A stretch of 64,000 nucleotides of DNA from Methanoculleus sp. (GTDB lineage: Archaea > Halobacteriota > Methanomicrobia > Methanomicrobiales > Methanoculleaceae): positions 1 to 64,000 of the forward strand of contig NZ_JAJGBK010000019.1 in assembly GCF_020696975.1 (NCBI RefSeq), in the 5' to 3' direction. Made by a program: the position numbers and the translations under genes. The notes under the pieces were generated by a model. That model was not told the DNA's origin, searched no databases, and saw only the letters and a program-made list of their open reading frames with translations. Numbering within the stretch: the stretch's first letter is position 1; the number at the start of each line of letters is the position of its first letter. Positions 5,457 to 62,986 of this stretch are shown here, in pieces.

Positions 5457-6553
5457 CGGTATGCCTCCAGTGCCCGGACGAGTTCGGCGGGGGTGTGGAG
5501 TTCGCCGCCGATCTTTGGTAGAGAGATGACCGGCTGGTCCACGTGGCGCTGGACCTCCCGGACCATCTGGCCCATGTTCAGTTCCGGCATCAGGAAGACC
5601 CTGGCGTTCGGGAACTCCTCGAGAGCAAACTCCGGGAACGGCCAGACGACCCTGAGCCTGAGATGGCCGATCGAGTCGTCCTGGCGGTCGCGCATCACCT
5701 GCTCGACCGTCCGGGACGGCGGTCCGTAGGTGACGAAGACCGTCTTGGCGTCGGGGTTTGTGACCTCGTAATCGGCGATATCACGCCGCGCCGACTCGAT
5801 CTTCGTGACCAGCCGCCGCACGAGTTTGTCGTGCGCCTCGGGATCGGTCGTGTCCGGGTAGCCCCGCTCGTCGTGGGTGAGCCCGGTCACGTGGACGAAC
5901 CTTCCCGAGCCGAAGGGTGCGAACCCGGGGATCCCATCCTCCCCGGCCTCGTATGGAAGGCTGCCCTCCGCGAGCGCGCGAGGAGGAGTGATCTCGACCG
6001 TGTCGGGGATGGTCGCCCGTTCCCGCATGTGGCCGACGATCTCGTCAGACATCAGGAATGTGGGGACCCTGAACCGGTCCGCGAGGTCGAACGCCTTCAC
6101 CGTCAGGTCGAACATCTCCTGGACGGAGTTCGGGGTGAGCGCGATGGTGCTGTAGTCGCCGTGCGACCCGAACCGGCACTGGAGCATATCCCCCTGCGCC
6201 GCCCGCGTCGGCTGGCCGGTGCTCGGCCCGCCCCGCTGGATGTTGACGATGACGCACGGCGTCTCGGTCATGGCCGCGTAGCCGATATTCTCCATCATCA
6301 GCGAGAACCCGGGACCGCTTGTTGCGGTCATGGCGCGGACCCCTGTCCAGGCGGCGCCGATCACCGCGGCGATGCTCGCGAGTTCGTCCTCCATGGATAT
6401 GAAGGTCCCGCCGGCCTTGGGGAGTCTCCTGGCCATCGTCTCGGCGATCTCGGTCGACGGCGTGATCGGGTAGCCGCCGAAGAACCGGCACCCGGCGGCG
6501 AGCGCCCCCTCCGCACAGGCGGTGTTCCCCTGCATGAACTCCGTTCTGCTCAA
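5453..6553 (-). CDS. korA: 2-oxoglutarate:ferredoxin oxidoreductase, alpha subunit (TTG start)
   Basis: This 366-residue alpha subunit starts the TPP enzyme's pyrimidine-binding half. Family features are RTEFMQGNTACAEGALAAGC, FFGGYPITPSTEIAE and ATSGPGFSLMMENIGYA near the N terminus, and RGGPSTGQPTRAAQGD further on. I choose the TTG at 6553 as start. It overlaps the korD stop codon (TTGA) and sits 5 bases after a strong GGTGGAGGTGG ribosome-binding site, giving LSRTEFMQGN. The first ATG (6535) would remove conserved residues. An open frame continues upstream into korD, but that part is a shadow of the ferredoxin gene. Confidence 0.93.
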   Translation of the reverse strand: MSRTEFMQGNTACAEGALAAGCRFFGGYPITPSTEIAETMARRLPKAGGTFISMEDELASIAAVIGAAWTGVRAMTATSGPGFSLMMENIGYAAMTETPCVIVNIQRGGPSTGQPTRAAQGDMLQCRFGSHGDYSTIALTPNSVQEMFDLTVKAFDLADRFRVPTFLMSDEIVGHMRERATIPDTVEITPPRALAEGSLPYEAGEDGIPGFAPFGSGRFVHVTGLTHDERGYPDTTDPEAHDKLVRRLVTKIESARRDIADYEVTNPDAKTVFVTYGPPSRTVEQVMRDRQDDSIGHLRLRVVWPFPEFALEEFPNARVFLMPELNMGQMVREVQRHVDQPVISLPKIGGELHTPAELVRALEAYR

Positions 6554-55424: not shown

Positions 55425-56453
55425 ATGACCATCGGGGAGCGGATCAGATCCGCACGTATCGGCGCGGGTTTGAGCCAGCGGGACCTGGCCCGGGAGATGG
55501 GCCTGAGCGCCATGGCAATCTCGAAGTACGAGACCGGCGAGGTCGTCCCGAGATCCGGGATTATCATTCAATTGAGCGAGGTTCTTGGAGTGAACGTCGA
55601 CTACTTCTTTCGCTCCATATGGGTGAACCTCTCACAACCGCAGTACCGGTGCCGGAAACCACTGAAAAAGAAAGAGGAGGGCCAGATCCATGCAAAGGTC
55701 CGGGAATGGTTAGAGAGATATCTCGAGATCGAACTGATCCTGGGCGAGGAGAAGGCCCTCACGCTCCCTTCCCCGGCGAACTGCCGCATAACAACCCTGG
55801 ACGAGATCGAAGACGTGGCGCTGAGGGTTCGCGATGAGTGGGACCTGGGGCTGGACCCCATCGAGAGCGTCATGGACGTGCTGGAGCAGCACGGCGTTAA
55901 GGTCGGCGTCGTCGAAGCCACGGATAAGTTCGACGCCCTGACGTTCTACCACAACGATACCACACCGGTTATCGCCGTGAACAACGATATGCCCGGGGAC
56001 CGCCAGCGGTTCAACCTCGCCCACGAACTCGGCCACCTCCTGCTCCGGATCGAGGGAGACGTCGATGAGGAGAAAGCAGCCCATCGGTTTGCCGCTGCGT
56101 TCCTCGTGCCGAAGGAGATGGCGTTCAAAGAACTTGGGGAGCGACGTCGGAGCATATCCCCGCAGGAGTTCTACGTTCTCAAGCATAAGTGGGGCATGAG
56201 CATGAGTGCCTGGCTCCACCGGGCTGCCGATCTCGGGATCATATCGGAGAACACGTCAGAACGTCTCTGGACTCTCTTCAATCAGCATGGGTGGGGGCAG
56301 AATGAGCCTGGAGCCCGGTTACCGCCGGAACGTCCAACGCATATGAAGCTGCTTGTGCTCCGCGCCCTGAGCGAGAAAAAAATAAGTCAATCGCGAGCCC
56401 AGGAATTACTTGGGGGAGAACAGCCCGTCGATCAGTGTATAGAGTCATTTTAG
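55425..56453 (+). CDS. XRE-type HTH protein with ImmA/IrrE-like metallopeptidase domain
   Basis: This 342-residue protein joins an N-terminal helix-turn-helix (GERIRSARIGAGLSQRDLAR, residues 3-58) to an ImmA/IrrE-type zinc peptidase whose motif HELGH lies near residue 203 in RFNLAHELGHLLLRIEGDVD, followed by EEKAAHRFAAAFLVPKEM. In phages and toxin-antitoxin loci such proteins are repressors or antitoxins that can be cleaved or cleave a partner. A PIN-domain gene follows 9 bases later. The inverted repeat over its own promoter suggests autorepression. Confidence 0.92.
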   Translation: MTIGERIRSARIGAGLSQRDLAREMGLSAMAISKYETGEVVPRSGIIIQLSEVLGVNVDYFFRSIWVNLSQPQYRCRKPLKKKEEGQIHAKVREWLERYLEIELILGEEKALTLPSPANCRITTLDEIEDVALRVRDEWDLGLDPIESVMDVLEQHGVKVGVVEATDKFDALTFYHNDTTPVIAVNNDMPGDRQRFNLAHELGHLLLRIEGDVDEEKAAHRFAAAFLVPKEMAFKELGERRRSISPQEFYVLKHKWGMSMSAWLHRAADLGIISENTSERLWTLFNQHGWGQNEPGARLPPERPTHMKLLVLRALSEKKISQSRAQELLGGEQPVDQCIESF

Positions 56454-56462
56454 GCGGTAGGT

Positions 56463-56954
56463 GTGAAGAGTCTCCGGTGCTCGGTCGATGCAAACTGTAT
56501 ATTCGACCTGGATGCCGGCGGTATCCTCGATTGCCCCTCACGCCTTGGCTACACCTTCCTCATGGCGAACTTCATCGCCCATGAGATAAAGACAGTCTCC
56601 CAGGAGCGATTACGACGCTGCGGCCTGGAGATCGTCGACCTGGAACCCGGGCAGGTTTCGGAGATCTATGAACTCCTCCGGAGACATCGTGGTCTCTCCC
56701 ACAGAGACCTTTCCGCATTCGTCCTGGCACGGGATTCTCGTTCCGTGCTGGTGACCGGTGACGGCCGCTTACGCACGATGGCCGAAGAGAACGGCGTGGA
56801 GTGTCACGGAACACTCTGGATCCTGGATGCCCTTGTGGACGGTGGTATTCTCAAGGGGGCGCGTGCCGCAGACGCCGTAAGGTCGATGCAGGCAAACGGC
56901 CGGTGGCTCCCGAAGGCCGAGTGCGATACGCGAATAAGAGTGTGGGGGCCATAG
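56463..56954 (+). CDS. PIN-domain protein, probable toxin partner of the XRE-ImmA gene
   Basis: This 163-residue protein has the PIN-fold acidic residues: SVDANCIFDLDAGGIL near residue 7, the middle SHRDLSAFVLARDSRSVLV and TGDGRLRTMAEENGVEC with GD, and the closing TLWILDALVDGGI. PIN RNases are common toxins, and the preceding XRE-ImmA gene, 9 bases away, is a suitable antitoxin. The start is the GTG at 56463 (an adjacent GTG at 56461 is out of frame); GGTAGG lies upstream. The RNA target is unknown. Confidence 0.85.
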   Translation: MKSLRCSVDANCIFDLDAGGILDCPSRLGYTFLMANFIAHEIKTVSQERLRRCGLEIVDLEPGQVSEIYELLRRHRGLSHRDLSAFVLARDSRSVLVTGDGRLRTMAEENGVECHGTLWILDALVDGGILKGARAADAVRSMQANGRWLPKAECDTRIRVWGP

Positions 56955-57362: not shown

Positions 57363-57904
57363 AGCCCGGCCCGCTCATCGCCGCGAGCGCGATATTCTTC
57401 TTCCTCTGGGCGGTCATGCCGGTGACGCTCGCATCCCATGGCTCCATCGGTTCCGGGAGCGTCATATTCCTGCTCTCGCTCATCTCGTTCGCCGGGTCCG
57501 TCGAGTTCCTGCGGGCGATGCGGCAGGAGTCGCCCCGGTGGCGCCGGGGCATACCGTTCGTCGCCGTCTGCGCCGCTCTTGTCCTCTGGACGGGGATGAT
57601 GGAGTGGACCGTAACCGTTCCCGATCTCGCGAACCGCGCCCTGCTCTTCCTGCTCCCCCCGGCCGCGGCGCTGCTCCTCTCCTCCTTCCCGGACGGCTGC
57701 CGGGACGGGGTGCGGATGCCGCTTATCGTCGTCGCGGTACTCGGCATCGTCTCGCTCTTCCTGGCCTTTAATGCGTTCCTGAAGGTCATCCCCTCGCCTG
57801 TGCCCGCACCGGGCATCACGGAGTTTGTCGGACCTCTCTATGCCCTCCTCCTCATGCCGCTCGTCGGGCTGCTCCTTATCCTGGCGGGGGTGGCCTGCCG
57901 ATGA
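57359..57904 (+). CDS. Integral membrane protein, function unknown
   Basis: This 181-residue protein has about five hydrophobic segments (LIAASAIFFFLWAVMPVTLA, IFLLSLISFAGSVEF, ALLFLLPPAAALLLS, VVAVLGIVSLFLAF, ALLLMPLVGLLLILAGV). I do not recognise a family. Its start overlaps the preceding mini-ORF, and its stop overlaps the lipoprotein gene start (ATGA), so the three genes are translated together. Confidence 0.75.
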   Translation: MKPGPLIAASAIFFFLWAVMPVTLASHGSIGSGSVIFLLSLISFAGSVEFLRAMRQESPRWRRGIPFVAVCAALVLWTGMMEWTVTVPDLANRALLFLLPPAAALLLSSFPDGCRDGVRMPLIVVAVLGIVSLFLAFNAFLKVIPSPVPAPGITEFVGPLYALLLMPLVGLLLILAGVACR

Positions 57905-59004
57905 AGCCTGCGGCGCTCGCGCTCCTCCTCCTCGCCTGGACCGCCGGGTGCATCGGCACCGCCGCGGACCCGCCGCCGGCGGACGAGATCGCCGCCCGGT
58001 TCATCGCGGCAGAGGAGGAGGCGGAGGACTTCTCCGCCACCGTAAGGGTAGTGGCCGATTCGGAGAACGTCACCGCGAGGCTCCTCCAGAAAGCCCCCGG
58101 GAGTTACCGGCTCGAATACCTGAAACCCGCGGAGATCGCAGGGACCATCGTCGTCTCGAACGGCACGCGGAAGTGGCGTTACGACCCGGCGACCCGGACG
58201 GCGCTGACGGTCGCCGGACCGTATATGGCAGCCACCTTCTCCGAGCCGTCGTATCCCGGCTGGGCGGAGGAGGTCCGGGGGTATGGCGGGATGGTTGCGG
58301 AGTCGCTTGCGGAGCAGAACGCCTCGTACCGCGGCAGCGAGGTCATCGGCGGCCGCACCGCCCATATCCTGGAGGTTGCCGGGGAAGCGAAACTCTTTGA
58401 GGCCCCAACCCGGAACCGGAAGGGGGTATACCGCCTCAGGGCATGGATCAACGCCGGGACCTGGCTCCTCCTCGGCGTCGAGATGTACGGGGCGGAGGGG
58501 GACCTGATCCTCTCTGCCGGATACACCGATCCCTCGACCAACACCGGCCTCCCGGACGACATCTTCACCTTCGACCCGCCGGCAGGCGTCGAGGTCCGGC
58601 CGATGCCGACGACCGCGATCACGCCGCTCTTCCTATGGAGCATCGACGACGCCCGGCGTTACGGTGCGCAAGTGCCGTCCTCCCTCCCGGAGGGTTATGC
58701 CTTTAACGAAGGGGCGGTCCTCCCCGGCGCCTACACGGTGCTCCGGTTCACGGATGGCAGCGACGAACTCACGGTCACGGAACGGCTCTACGACCCGTAC
58801 CGGGAGAGCGACGCGCTCCCCGGCACCCCGGAACCGGTGACCCTTGCCGGGGCCCGGGAGGCTGAATACGTCATTACTGGCGGGAAGGATCAGGTTCGCT
58901 GGCACGCCGGGGAATACCTATACCTGATCACGGGAGAGATGCTTGGGCGGGACGAACTCGTGCGGGTGGCGGAATCGGTGGCGGTGCGGGTATCCGCGCC
59001 GTAG
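57901..59004 (+). CDS. LolA/DUF4367-like lipoprotein
   Basis: This 367-residue protein begins MKPAALALLLLAWTAGC with lipobox WTAGC. The mature part resembles archaeal proteins with a LolA/LppX-like open barrel: EEEAEDFSATVRVVADSENV, ARLLQKAPGSYRLEYLKPAE, NGTRKWRYDPATR, and later VFTFDPPAGVEV-type (DIFTFDPPAGVEV). The last 100 residues (YGAQVPSSLPEGYAFNEGAV onward) look like a DUF4367 domain. It probably acts outside the membrane on a lipid or hydrophobic molecule; that is family-level inference. Confidence 0.8.
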   Translation: MKPAALALLLLAWTAGCIGTAADPPPADEIAARFIAAEEEAEDFSATVRVVADSENVTARLLQKAPGSYRLEYLKPAEIAGTIVVSNGTRKWRYDPATRTALTVAGPYMAATFSEPSYPGWAEEVRGYGGMVAESLAEQNASYRGSEVIGGRTAHILEVAGEAKLFEAPTRNRKGVYRLRAWINAGTWLLLGVEMYGAEGDLILSAGYTDPSTNTGLPDDIFTFDPPAGVEVRPMPTTAITPLFLWSIDDARRYGAQVPSSLPEGYAFNEGAVLPGAYTVLRFTDGSDELTVTERLYDPYRESDALPGTPEPVTLAGAREAEYVITGGKDQVRWHAGEYLYLITGEMLGRDELVRVAESVAVRVSAP

Positions 59005-59063: not shown

Positions 59064-60224
59064 ATGCTCAACCGCCCCGCCGCTGTGCTTCTCCTCCTCG
59101 CGGTCTGCACTGCGGGCTGCACGTCGGCCCCGGATACCACGGACGCCGTCAACCGGACCCTTGACTCCCTCACCCTCGATGAGAAGATCGGGCAGATGCT
59201 CCTCGTCGGGTTCCGCGGCTACACCGCTGATGACGACTCGCAGATCGCCCGCGACATCGCGGCCGGGCGCGTCGGCGGGGTGATCCTCTTCGATCGGGAC
59301 GTGGCGCTCGGCAGTAACGAGCGTAACATCAACAACCCCGCCCAGGTCCGGGCCCTGACCGCCTCGCTCCGGGGCTACGCCGGGAAAGTCCCGATCTTCA
59401 TCGCCGTCGACCAGGAGGGTGGGGCGGTCTGCCGGCTGAAGGAGGCCCGCGGGTTCCCGGCGACCGTCTCCGCCCGGTCGCTCGGCGACCTGAACAACGA
59501 GACCGCCACCCGCGAGGCCGGGCAGGCGCTCGCGGCGATGGTCGCTGAGAGCGGGTTCAACCTGAACTTCGCGCCGGTCGTCGACATTGACGTCAACCCC
59601 GACTCGCCGGCGATCGGCCGGCTCAACCGGAGTTTCTCTGCGAACGCCACCGTCGTCGCCGACAACGCACGCTGGGTCATCGAGGAGCACCACCGGCAGG
59701 GCGTGATGACGGCGATCAAGCACTATCCTGGCCACGGGAGCGCCCTGACCGATACGCATGAGGGGTTTGCCGACGTCACGGAGACCTGGAGCGAGGAGGA
59801 GCTCCAGCCCTACCGTGACCTCATCGGCCGCGACCTGCCCGACATGGTGATGACCGCCCACGTCTACAACGCCGGGATCGATCCCGACTGCCCGGCGACA
59901 CTCTCAGAGGCGACGGTCACCGGCATCCTCCGCGAGCGGCTCGGCTACCAGGGCGTAGTTGTCACGGACGCGATGGATATGGGGGCTATCCACGACACCT
60001 ATGATCTTCGGGAGTCGCTGAAACTCTCGATCAACGCCGGGTGTGATATCTTCCTCTTCGCAAACAACCTGGTCTACGATGAGTTGATCGCACAGAAGGC
60101 CGTCGGGATCGTGAAGGAACTCGTCGAGTCGGGAGAGATCTCCGAAGATCGTATCGACGAGTCCTGCGGCCGGATCCTCAGGCTGAAGATGGAGTACCTG
60201 GACGGGGGAGCAGTGATGCCCTGA
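59064..60224 (+). CDS. Family 3 glycoside hydrolase, NagZ-like beta-N-acetylhexosaminidase, lipoprotein
   Basis: This 386-residue protein has a lipoprotein signal (LLLLAVCTAGC) and a GH3 core: TLDEKIGQMLLVGFRGY, IFIAVDQEGGAVCRL, the NagZ-type histidine region KHYPGHGSALTDTHEGFADV near residue 218 and the nucleophile in VVVTDAMDMGAI near residue 302. NagZ enzymes remove N-acetylglucosamine from peptidoglycan or chitin-derived sugars. Methanogens of this order lack murein, so the target is more likely exopolysaccharide, glycoprotein or bacterial debris; that is inference. It stands alone after a 59-base gap. Confidence 0.9.
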   Translation: MLNRPAAVLLLLAVCTAGCTSAPDTTDAVNRTLDSLTLDEKIGQMLLVGFRGYTADDDSQIARDIAAGRVGGVILFDRDVALGSNERNINNPAQVRALTASLRGYAGKVPIFIAVDQEGGAVCRLKEARGFPATVSARSLGDLNNETATREAGQALAAMVAESGFNLNFAPVVDIDVNPDSPAIGRLNRSFSANATVVADNARWVIEEHHRQGVMTAIKHYPGHGSALTDTHEGFADVTETWSEEELQPYRDLIGRDLPDMVMTAHVYNAGIDPDCPATLSEATVTGILRERLGYQGVVVTDAMDMGAIHDTYDLRESLKLSINAGCDIFLFANNLVYDELIAQKAVGIVKELVESGEISEDRIDESCGRILRLKMEYLDGGAVMP

Positions 60225-60399: not shown

Positions 60400-62550
60400 A
60401 TGACCCCACGACCCCGGTTCCCTGGCCTCCTGGCGTTGTTCACGCTCATCGGTATCGTCACTCTCGGCATCTCTTCTGCAGGCTGCACCGCCGCACCCGA
60501 CCCCATCCGTGTTGGCGTCCTGCTGCCGGAGAACGGCTCGCTTGCCACGCACTCGCTCGACGGTCTCGGCTGGGCGGTGGATGCCCTGGAGCGGCAGGGC
60601 GGCCGGCCGGTCGAGCTCGTCTGCCGCGACACGAGCGCGGGGAACCTCACTGCGTACGCCGAGGACCTCGCCGGGCGCGATGATATCGACGTCATCATCG
60701 GCCCCGCGACGAGCGCGGACCTCATGGAGATCGCCCCCCTCGTCACCGGGCGGGGCAAACTCCTCATATCGCCGAGCGCCACCTCGGGCCTCGTCACGGC
60801 CGAATTCCAGGATAACGATCTCGTCTGGCGGACGTGCTCGGGCGACAGCGAGCAGTTGAAGGCGATCTTTGCCATCCTGCGCGAGAGCGGCGCAGAGAAC
60901 GTTTCGCTCGTCGCCGCGAACAACACCTACGGCACGACGTTCGCCCGGCTCGCCCCGGCGGCGGCGACGGTGGCCGGGATCCGGCTCACCGGGACGGCCT
61001 TCATCGAGGGGCCGGACGATCTTGCCGGGATCGCCGCCCGGCTCACCGCGGAGGGGCCCGATGTGGTTGTCGCCACCGTCTACCCCGAGGAGGCCGCCCG
61101 TCTCGCGGACGGTCTCGCAGGCTCCCGCGCCGGCCTCTTCCTCGCCGACGCCGGCCGCTCGCCCTACCTGATCGAGAGCCTCGGCGACCGGGCGGAGGGG
61201 ATATCGGGGACGTCGCTTGCCCCCGACCCCTCGACCGGCTACGCGATCGCCTACGAGGAGGTCTTCGGCGATGAGCCCCCGGCGTTTGCCGCACAGACCT
61301 ACGACGCCCTCCTCCTCGCCGTCTACACCGCGGCCCGGCAGGAGGCGGCCCCGGACGAGCCGCTCGCAGCCTCCCTCCGGTGGGTCGTCTCCGGCAACGG
61401 CGTCCCGAAGGGCTGGGACCCCCAGGAGGCCGCCGAGGCCGCGGCGATGATCCGGGCGGGTGGTCACCCGACGGTCACCGGGGCCTCCGGCCCCCTCCAG
61501 TTTGGCGACCGTCCCTCGGCCGGACCGCTCGTCGGCTACTACACCCGCTGGACGATCGAGGGCGGGGCGTTCTCCGAGAGCACCCCGGTCCCGTCCGCGG
61601 AGATAACCCCGCGCCTCCCCGGCCTCGCCGCGTCCGGCGGGGCTGTGGAGCGGCCGGTCGTCTGGATGGTCTACCCGCTCGCAAAGGGCGACCGGTCGTT
61701 TGCCGACTCGGCCTACCGGGGCCTCTTCCGGGCAGAGGAGTCGTTTGACGTCACGAAGAGGGAGTTCACCTACGCCGACCTCGCGCTCCTCGACGCCGTC
61801 TTTGCCGCCCAAAACTTCACCGAGAAGCCCGCCCTCGTCATCACTGAGGGGTTCCAGTTCACCGAGACCACCCGGGCGTGGGCGGAAGGAAACCCCGACA
61901 TCCGGTTCGTCACCCTCGAGCAGGCGGACTATGGCCTCCCGAACGCCTGCGACGCCGTGATGGTCCCGTATGGCGCGTCCTACCTCGCGGGTGTTATGGC
62001 GGCGAACATGACAGAGACGGGGAGGATCGGTGCGGTTGCCGGCGCCCCGGTCTCCGTCATCGAGCCCTTCGTCGAGGGGTTCAGCGCGGGGGCGGCAGCA
62101 TACGACCCGGCGGTGAACGTGACGGTCCGCTACGTCGCCGGGGGTTTTGAGGGGTTCGGGATGCCGGAGCGTGCGGGTGACCTTGCCCGCGACCTCCACA
62201 GCGAGGGCGTCGACGTCATCCTGATGATCGCGGGCTCCGGCAACACCGGGATCGTGGACGCTGCCCGGGAGACCGGGGACGTTTACCTCATCGGGGAGGA
62301 TACCGACCAGTCCTACCTCGCCCCGAACCTGGTGGTTGCGTCGGTGGTGAAGAACATCGACGCGATCGTCTACGACGCGGTGGAGGACGAGGTCACGGGC
62401 CGGTTCCGGGCCGGGCAGGAGGCCTGGACGCTCGTCGACGGTGGGACCGGGCTCTTTGTCTCCCCGCGGTTTGCCGGGTATGCGCCGGCCGACGGCTGGC
62501 ATGACCGGGCGGTCGCCGCGGAAGGAGAGTACCTGGCCAGGATGTGGTGA
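60400..62550 (+). CDS. Double periplasmic-binding lipoprotein: LivK-like domain fused to a BMP/PnrA-like domain
   Basis: This 716-residue lipoprotein (signal ending GISSAGC at residues 23-29) contains two different binding folds. Residues about 35-390 are a branched-chain amino acid (LivK) type domain: IRVGVLLPENGSLATHSLDG, VIIGPATSADLMEIAPLV, VSLVAANNTYGTTFARL. Residues about 410-700 are a BMP/PnrA-like basic membrane protein domain, as in nucleoside receptors: YGASYLAGVMAANMTETGRI, DVILMIAGSGNTGIVDAARE, GEDTDQSYLAPNLVVASVVK. No ABC ATPase or permease is adjacent, so it may serve a remote transporter or act as a receptor. A shadow ORF of similar length exists on the other strand. Confidence 0.88.
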   Translation: MTPRPRFPGLLALFTLIGIVTLGISSAGCTAAPDPIRVGVLLPENGSLATHSLDGLGWAVDALERQGGRPVELVCRDTSAGNLTAYAEDLAGRDDIDVIIGPATSADLMEIAPLVTGRGKLLISPSATSGLVTAEFQDNDLVWRTCSGDSEQLKAIFAILRESGAENVSLVAANNTYGTTFARLAPAAATVAGIRLTGTAFIEGPDDLAGIAARLTAEGPDVVVATVYPEEAARLADGLAGSRAGLFLADAGRSPYLIESLGDRAEGISGTSLAPDPSTGYAIAYEEVFGDEPPAFAAQTYDALLLAVYTAARQEAAPDEPLAASLRWVVSGNGVPKGWDPQEAAEAAAMIRAGGHPTVTGASGPLQFGDRPSAGPLVGYYTRWTIEGGAFSESTPVPSAEITPRLPGLAASGGAVERPVVWMVYPLAKGDRSFADSAYRGLFRAEESFDVTKREFTYADLALLDAVFAAQNFTEKPALVITEGFQFTETTRAWAEGNPDIRFVTLEQADYGLPNACDAVMVPYGASYLAGVMAANMTETGRIGAVAGAPVSVIEPFVEGFSAGAAAYDPAVNVTVRYVAGGFEGFGMPERAGDLARDLHSEGVDVILMIAGSGNTGIVDAARETGDVYLIGEDTDQSYLAPNLVVASVVKNIDAIVYDAVEDEVTGRFRAGQEAWTLVDGGTGLFVSPRFAGYAPADGWHDRAVAAEGEYLARMW

Positions 62551-62599: not shown

Positions 62600-62986
62600 G
62601 TGATCACGACGACCTGGCAGGACTTCGCCATAACCGGCATCACGGTACTCTTCGCGGTCATGCTCGTGCCGCAGCTCCGCGACGTGATGACCCGCGGCGC
62701 CGTGCTGAACGTCTTCTCGGCGCTCACGACGAGCATCCTCGGCTATCTGCTGGCTGCGGTCTTTGCCACCCTGGGCCTCTGGGTCTCGGTCTTCGGCCAG
62801 GGGCTCGTCGCGACCGCGTGGCTGCTGCTTGCCTGCTTCTCGCTTCGGAACGTCCGCGACCACTCGTTCCCGGGCGCGACGCTCCTCTCCGTCGCCCTGG
62901 AGTTCCTCGCGATCTGGGCGCGAGGGGTGGCCTATCTCGTCGCGGGGGGCGTGAAGGGGCTCTTCACGCGGATAGAGCGGGACTGA
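62600..62986 (+). CDS. Small integral membrane protein
   Basis: This 128-residue protein has four hydrophobic segments (DFAITGITVLFAVMLVPQL, VFSALTTSILGYLLAAVFATL, WVSVFGQGLVATAWLLLAC, TLLSVALEFLAIWARGVAYL). I do not recognise a family. The start is a GTG at 62600, 50 bases after the double binding protein, without a strong ribosome-binding site. Its position makes a link with that receptor possible, but nothing in the sequence shows it. Confidence 0.65.
   Translation: MITTTWQDFAITGITVLFAVMLVPQLRDVMTRGAVLNVFSALTTSILGYLLAAVFATLGLWVSVFGQGLVATAWLLLACFSLRNVRDHSFPGATLLSVALEFLAIWARGVAYLVAGGVKGLFTRIERD

Follow-up and report, generated by a model that had tools for sequence, protein, structure and literature searches.

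Substrate-binding proteins are usually annotated as parts of transporters, and the locus described here raises the question of what two such domains do when they are joined in one exported protein, in a genome in which no permease of the family serving either of them is detected. The window, which is the whole stretch of DNA analysed (64,000 nucleotides from Methanoculleus sp., genome G000), contains at 60400-62550 of the forward strand an open reading frame for a 716-residue lipoprotein composed of a LivK-type domain and a BMP/PnrA-type domain. In the following, the reality and spread of this fusion, its counterparts in related archaea and its possible function are considered in turn.

The fusion protein and its distribution

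An earlier note on this DNA had proposed that LivK and BMP families are joined here in one exported 716-residue lipoprotein, and Pfam searches bear this out, with both domains well over their cut-offs. Peripla_BP_6 matches residues 35-319 (E 7.3e-29, 101.9 bits with a cut-off of 31.7, profile positions 1-301 of 343), and the C-terminal half, on whose relation to BMP the proposal hinged, matches Bmp at residues 421-677 (E 8.1e-45, 153.5 bits with a cut-off of 24.1, profile positions 4-259 of 301). In sequence searches against the PDB, the LivK half finds amino-acid-binding proteins, among them 3td9 and leucine-binding protein, and the BMP half finds Lbp, BmpD, BmpA and PnrA/TmpC. The parts of the protein are collected in Table 1. 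An AlphaFold model of the fusion (five sequences) reached a mean pLDDT of 43, and no structural claim made here rests on it.

Table 1. Coordinates of the fusion, the gene behind it and a representative two-gene unit of a relative
Feature	Coordinates	Strand	Remarks
Signal peptide and lipobox-like SAG-C29	60400..60486	+	seen directly in the letters; all 5 relatives aligned share C29
LivK-type (Peripla_BP_6) domain, residues 35-~401	60502..61602	+	Pfam core 35-319; end at about residue 401 set by the extent of homology to LivK-C13 proteins
Variable linker, residues ~402-418	61603..61653	+	gapped and weakly conserved in the alignment
BMP/PnrA-type domain and C-terminal tail, residues 419-716	61654..62547	+	Pfam Bmp 421-677
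Small membrane protein	62600-62986	+	GTG start; starts 50 bases past the fusion ORF
Two-gene unit, LivK-C13 then BMP	L061:8255-11418		adjacent genes

The search for the same domain pair elsewhere, which the note had suggested, was productive. The fusion is matched in 17 of the 40 genomes of the family, a patchy distribution, and 13 family genomes other than that of the window carry one complete or nearly complete open reading frame of similar length with 72-80% identity. A frameshift or assembly artefact is thereby ruled out as the source of the fusion. The remaining matches in the family are pieces at contig ends, and in G029 the copy is split across two frames. Divergent fused copies were found in other families as well, namely in G088 (family f4), G119 and G120 (f5), and G129 and G201 (f6). 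When the fusion is aligned with its relatives, many positions are invariant in both domains. Signs of decay are also present: the small membrane protein of G005 is preceded by a short leftover of BMP sequence (VEGFRAGAAAYDP; L170, around 5875-6015), and G095 retains a truncated end of the BMP part (L164:4723-5094). As the fusion is patchy and decaying in some genomes, its gene is not essential.

A two-gene unit in relatives and the origin of the fusion

The earlier note was right that the fusion is real, and missed that in relatives the same domains are encoded by adjacent genes, with an additional domain on the LivK protein. In eight other Methanomicrobiales loci, read in detail (L061, L062, L063, L067, L069, L081, L083 and L090), a relative of the LivK part (39-44% identity) directly precedes a relative of the BMP part (37-40%), so that both belong to the same subfamilies as the halves of the fusion. 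Where intact, the first gene encodes about 700 residues with a Peptidase_C13 (legumain-family) domain behind the LivK part (E-values of 1e-42 to 3e-55 in the six LivK-C13 proteins scanned). The second gene mostly starts in a 4-base overlap with the LivK-C13 stop, and its BMP protein bears an N-terminal membrane anchor of its own; the fusion differs from the pair in having neither the legumain-family domain nor a separately anchored BMP protein.

Legumain-family (C13) proteases are best known from plants and animals. Contig ends and broken frames aside, all strong C13 matches in the loci fetched in the order lie in LivK-bearing proteins. The C13 His and Cys, in the contexts HG and (D/E)xC, are present in 31 of 31 aligned sequences, and because this dyad is kept throughout, the peptidase is probably active. 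Association with BMP is also evident at the level of genomes: across the 232 genomes of the order, BMP occurs in 24 of the 30 with C13 and in 53 of the 202 without it (Fisher p 2e-8, ignoring relatedness), and within family f6 alone the corresponding values are 20 of 26 and 15 of 82 (p 9e-8, likewise ignoring relatedness). No PF01650 (Peptidase_C13) match was found in G000 or in any Methanoculleus searched. In titles and abstracts covering the literature in part, no paper was recognised as describing a LivK-BMP or LivK-C13 system.

In regard to the origin of the fusions, a tree of 49 LivK sequences places them in two positions. One comprises Methanoculleus together with G088, G119 and G120, and in the other G129 and G201 group with the f3 family's LivK-C13 proteins (support 100/98). 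A single clade of all fusions, a group defined by architecture, is rejected (AU p 0.00095) in a test made after the tree had been seen. The BMP tree splits the same two groups and needs two changes, with G129 and G201 standing among operon BMPs of f3 and some solo BMPs (100/100). LivK-BMP fusions have thus arisen at least twice, and that these two domains were combined more than once speaks for a joint function. A simple reading would be that the C13 domain was lost and the genes were joined at least two times. Since the trees are midpoint-rooted, the reverse route, with C13 gained, is possible too.

Within the first of these groups, the fused gene of G088 (L076), a genome of another family, nests among the Methanoculleus copies in the LivK tree, which suggests horizontal transfer between families.

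Fusions of this kind are also found outside the order. In family f10, LivK-BMP lipoproteins of 735-742 residues with both Pfam domains are encoded at L162:2986-5193 and L163:3712-5940. Their LivK part is barely similar to that of the window, and they probably represent a further independent event. Among the genomes with these fusions, G307 has PF02653 permeases and none was found in G408, so the argument about transport developed below does not extend to the f10 fusions.

Predicted ligands and possible function

In the LivK half of the fusion, S105, D149 and Y177 align with positions 79, 121 and 150 of leucine-binding protein, which have a role in binding the amino-acid head group; each of the three is shared by at least 43, and up to all 46, of the relatives compared. 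An amino-acid-like ligand is probable for this half. The domain and the order of motifs are those of LivK/LivJ-type proteins (PF13458), from which the fusion differs in the attached second binding domain and in the LivHM permease not found in its genome.

For the BMP half, residues lining the BmpA pocket are listed in PMC13325309, and PDB 9q1u served as the reference for alignment. BmpA D24, F27, F151, F176, D225 and K242 are kept as D431, F434, F557, F583, D634 and K651, D98 is changed to E507, and N28, V224, A200 and D19 are replaced by A435, E633, I610 and P426, respectively. By this pattern a nucleoside-like ligand is the likelier one, with its base recognised in an altered way; the four replacements could change the preference for the base, or the pocket could take something other than a nucleoside. 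By sequence the half belongs with the BMP/PnrA lipoproteins (PF02608; TmpC/PnrA, BmpA, BmpD), and it keeps most of their ribose and base-stacking positions. It differs from them in the replaced N28 and V224, in its position behind a LivK domain with no signal peptide of its own, and in the lack of a PF02653 match in its genome.

Of the two roles proposed in the earlier note, a two-ligand receptor and a supplier of a distant permease, the first is the better, with ligand binding predicted for both halves. The reading that we favour, and to which we would give about even chances, is a membrane-anchored dual-ligand receptor that is uncoupled from transport and acts on a signalling partner in the membrane. 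The lipoprotein would display two Venus-flytrap domains outside the cell on one lipid anchor, the LivK-type domain binding an amino-acid-like and the BMP-type domain a nucleoside-like ligand. Their ligand-driven closure would be read by a membrane partner, which could be a chemotaxis transducer, a sensor kinase or another envelope protein, in the way in which transducers read BasB and CosB in Halobacterium. Such a receptor has probably descended from the two-gene unit, with LivK-C13 followed by BMP, through loss of C13 and joining of the binding domains. If this signalling reading is true, the protein would be an external sensor for organic nutrients in these methanogens.

Docking of substrate-binding proteins on chemoreceptors and kinases is reported to be widespread, archaea included (PMC9602780), and in Halobacterium BasB and CosB associate with taxis transducers, as seen from their co-purification (PMC3579733). 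The likeness proposed between the fusion and the latter two is one of function; their partner is known, and the fusion has two binding domains. Some neighbourhoods of stand-alone BMP genes also contain sensory proteins. These genes adjoin sCache_2 lipoproteins in L065, L066 and L082, where the sCache_2/dCache_2 proteins upstream of BMP give no kinase or transducer match. In L064 a HisKA_7TM kinase lies upstream of a stand-alone BMP gene, and an N-terminus similar to that of this kinase is found near the BMP gene of L082. Counting against a signalling role, the fusion protein has no cytoplasmic part, and the window shows no recognisable gene for a transducer or kinase next to it. MCP signalling domains are encoded in the same genome, unlinked to the fusion, and are found in 35 of the 40 family genomes; being nearly universal in the family, they are uninformative on coupling.

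It is also possible, with clearly lower probability, that the domains form a module which regulates proteolysis in the envelope or acts as a scaffold for it. Binding of ligands by LivK and BMP would then gate the legumain-like C13 protease or transpeptidase in relatives, and the protease-less protein of Methanoculleus would have another surface enzyme as its target. The LivK-C13 proteins with their invariant His and Cys, encoded beside BMP, are in line with such a role, but no Methanoculleus searched has a C13 domain, and gating by ligand is a supposition. Related to this, a scheme that we put forward only tentatively would combine both readings in a surface sensory system of Methanomicrobiales. 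In it, amino-acid-type and nucleoside-type receptors jointly control an extracellular legumain-like protease or transpeptidase, and in Methanoculleus and others the coupled receptors alone remain, joined in a single protein that serves a new output. Relatives do tie LivK and BMP binding domains to a legumain-family protease, and under a signalling role they would offer a candidate protein pair for ligand-controlled proteolysis on the archaeal surface.

An import role, in which amino acids or nucleosides are delivered to an unlinked permease that is either of another class or too divergent for the profile, appears unlikely. LivK and BMP families are normally import receptors, archaeal substrate-binding proteins are usually lipoprotein-anchored, and the genome, about 95% complete (2.29 Mb in 33 contigs), could be missing a permease gene. 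However, permeases of PF02653 serve both LivK and BMP systems, and searches by profile, in genomes that are possibly incomplete, found no such LivHM/BMP-type permease in G000 nor in 33 of the 35 genomes of the genus, which include several closed ones. The exceptions are G006, with a marginal match (E 1e-3), and G015, with clear matches in an assembly of 660 contigs and 85% completeness. Co-occurrence with permeases, which had been suggested as a check, is likewise confined to G015, the only one among the 22 carriers of the fusion or its fragments in the order with PF02653 above the cut-off. The same profile gave a match in 12 of 14 control genomes. Moreover, the sole Bmp and the sole Peripla_BP_6 matches of the genome are the two halves of the fusion. 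The earlier statement that no transporter lies nearby therefore holds and can be widened to the lack of a PF02653 match in the whole genome, and the feeding of a distant cognate permease becomes unlikely because the family is not found there or in nearly all other carriers. Substrate-binding domains have thus been retained in this lineage without a matching permease, and joined more than once.

That the fusion is an accessory gene with little function left, a horizontally spread and decaying leftover of the LivK-C13/BMP unit, would agree with its patchy distribution, the remnants in G005, the truncated copy in G095 and the nested copy in G088, but is rendered very improbable by the 13 further genomes of the family with an intact frame of comparable length and by the many invariant positions, which argue for selection.

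Genes next to the fusion

The small membrane protein encoded behind the fusion, to which the earlier note gave four membrane segments, had been proposed there as a possible partner. It adjoins the fusion in most Methanoculleus carriers, and lies 3.7 kb from it in G028. The protein is also present in G004, G005, G008, G009 and G014, all of which have no match to the fusion, and it is unlinked in G036, where it lies on another contig, and in G037, where the distance is about 500 kb. These occurrences speak against the partnership proposed, and it is probably not specific to the fusion. As it is retained after loss of the fusion, it would either have a function of its own or be a bystander.

Upstream of the fusion, 59064-60224 encodes a lipoprotein whose glycoside hydrolase family 3 domain is beta-N-acetylhexosaminidase-like; in L002, L015 and L023 the only stretch of it seen matches residues 334-381, with 77% identity. 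The preceding lipoprotein (57901-59004) resembles LolA and DUF4367 only weakly, with scores short of the curated cut-offs, and no counterpart of it was seen in the relatives' loci. Further upstream, at 55425-56954, an HTH/IrrE-type (Peptidase_M78) regulator is followed by a PIN/DUF3368-like protein, forming a toxin-antitoxin-like pair. Among the relatives, repeated translations of the GSSPREWGT/VHPHASGEH type extend over about 3 kb near the BMP gene of G085 (L084:9465-12505) and probably represent a CRISPR array.
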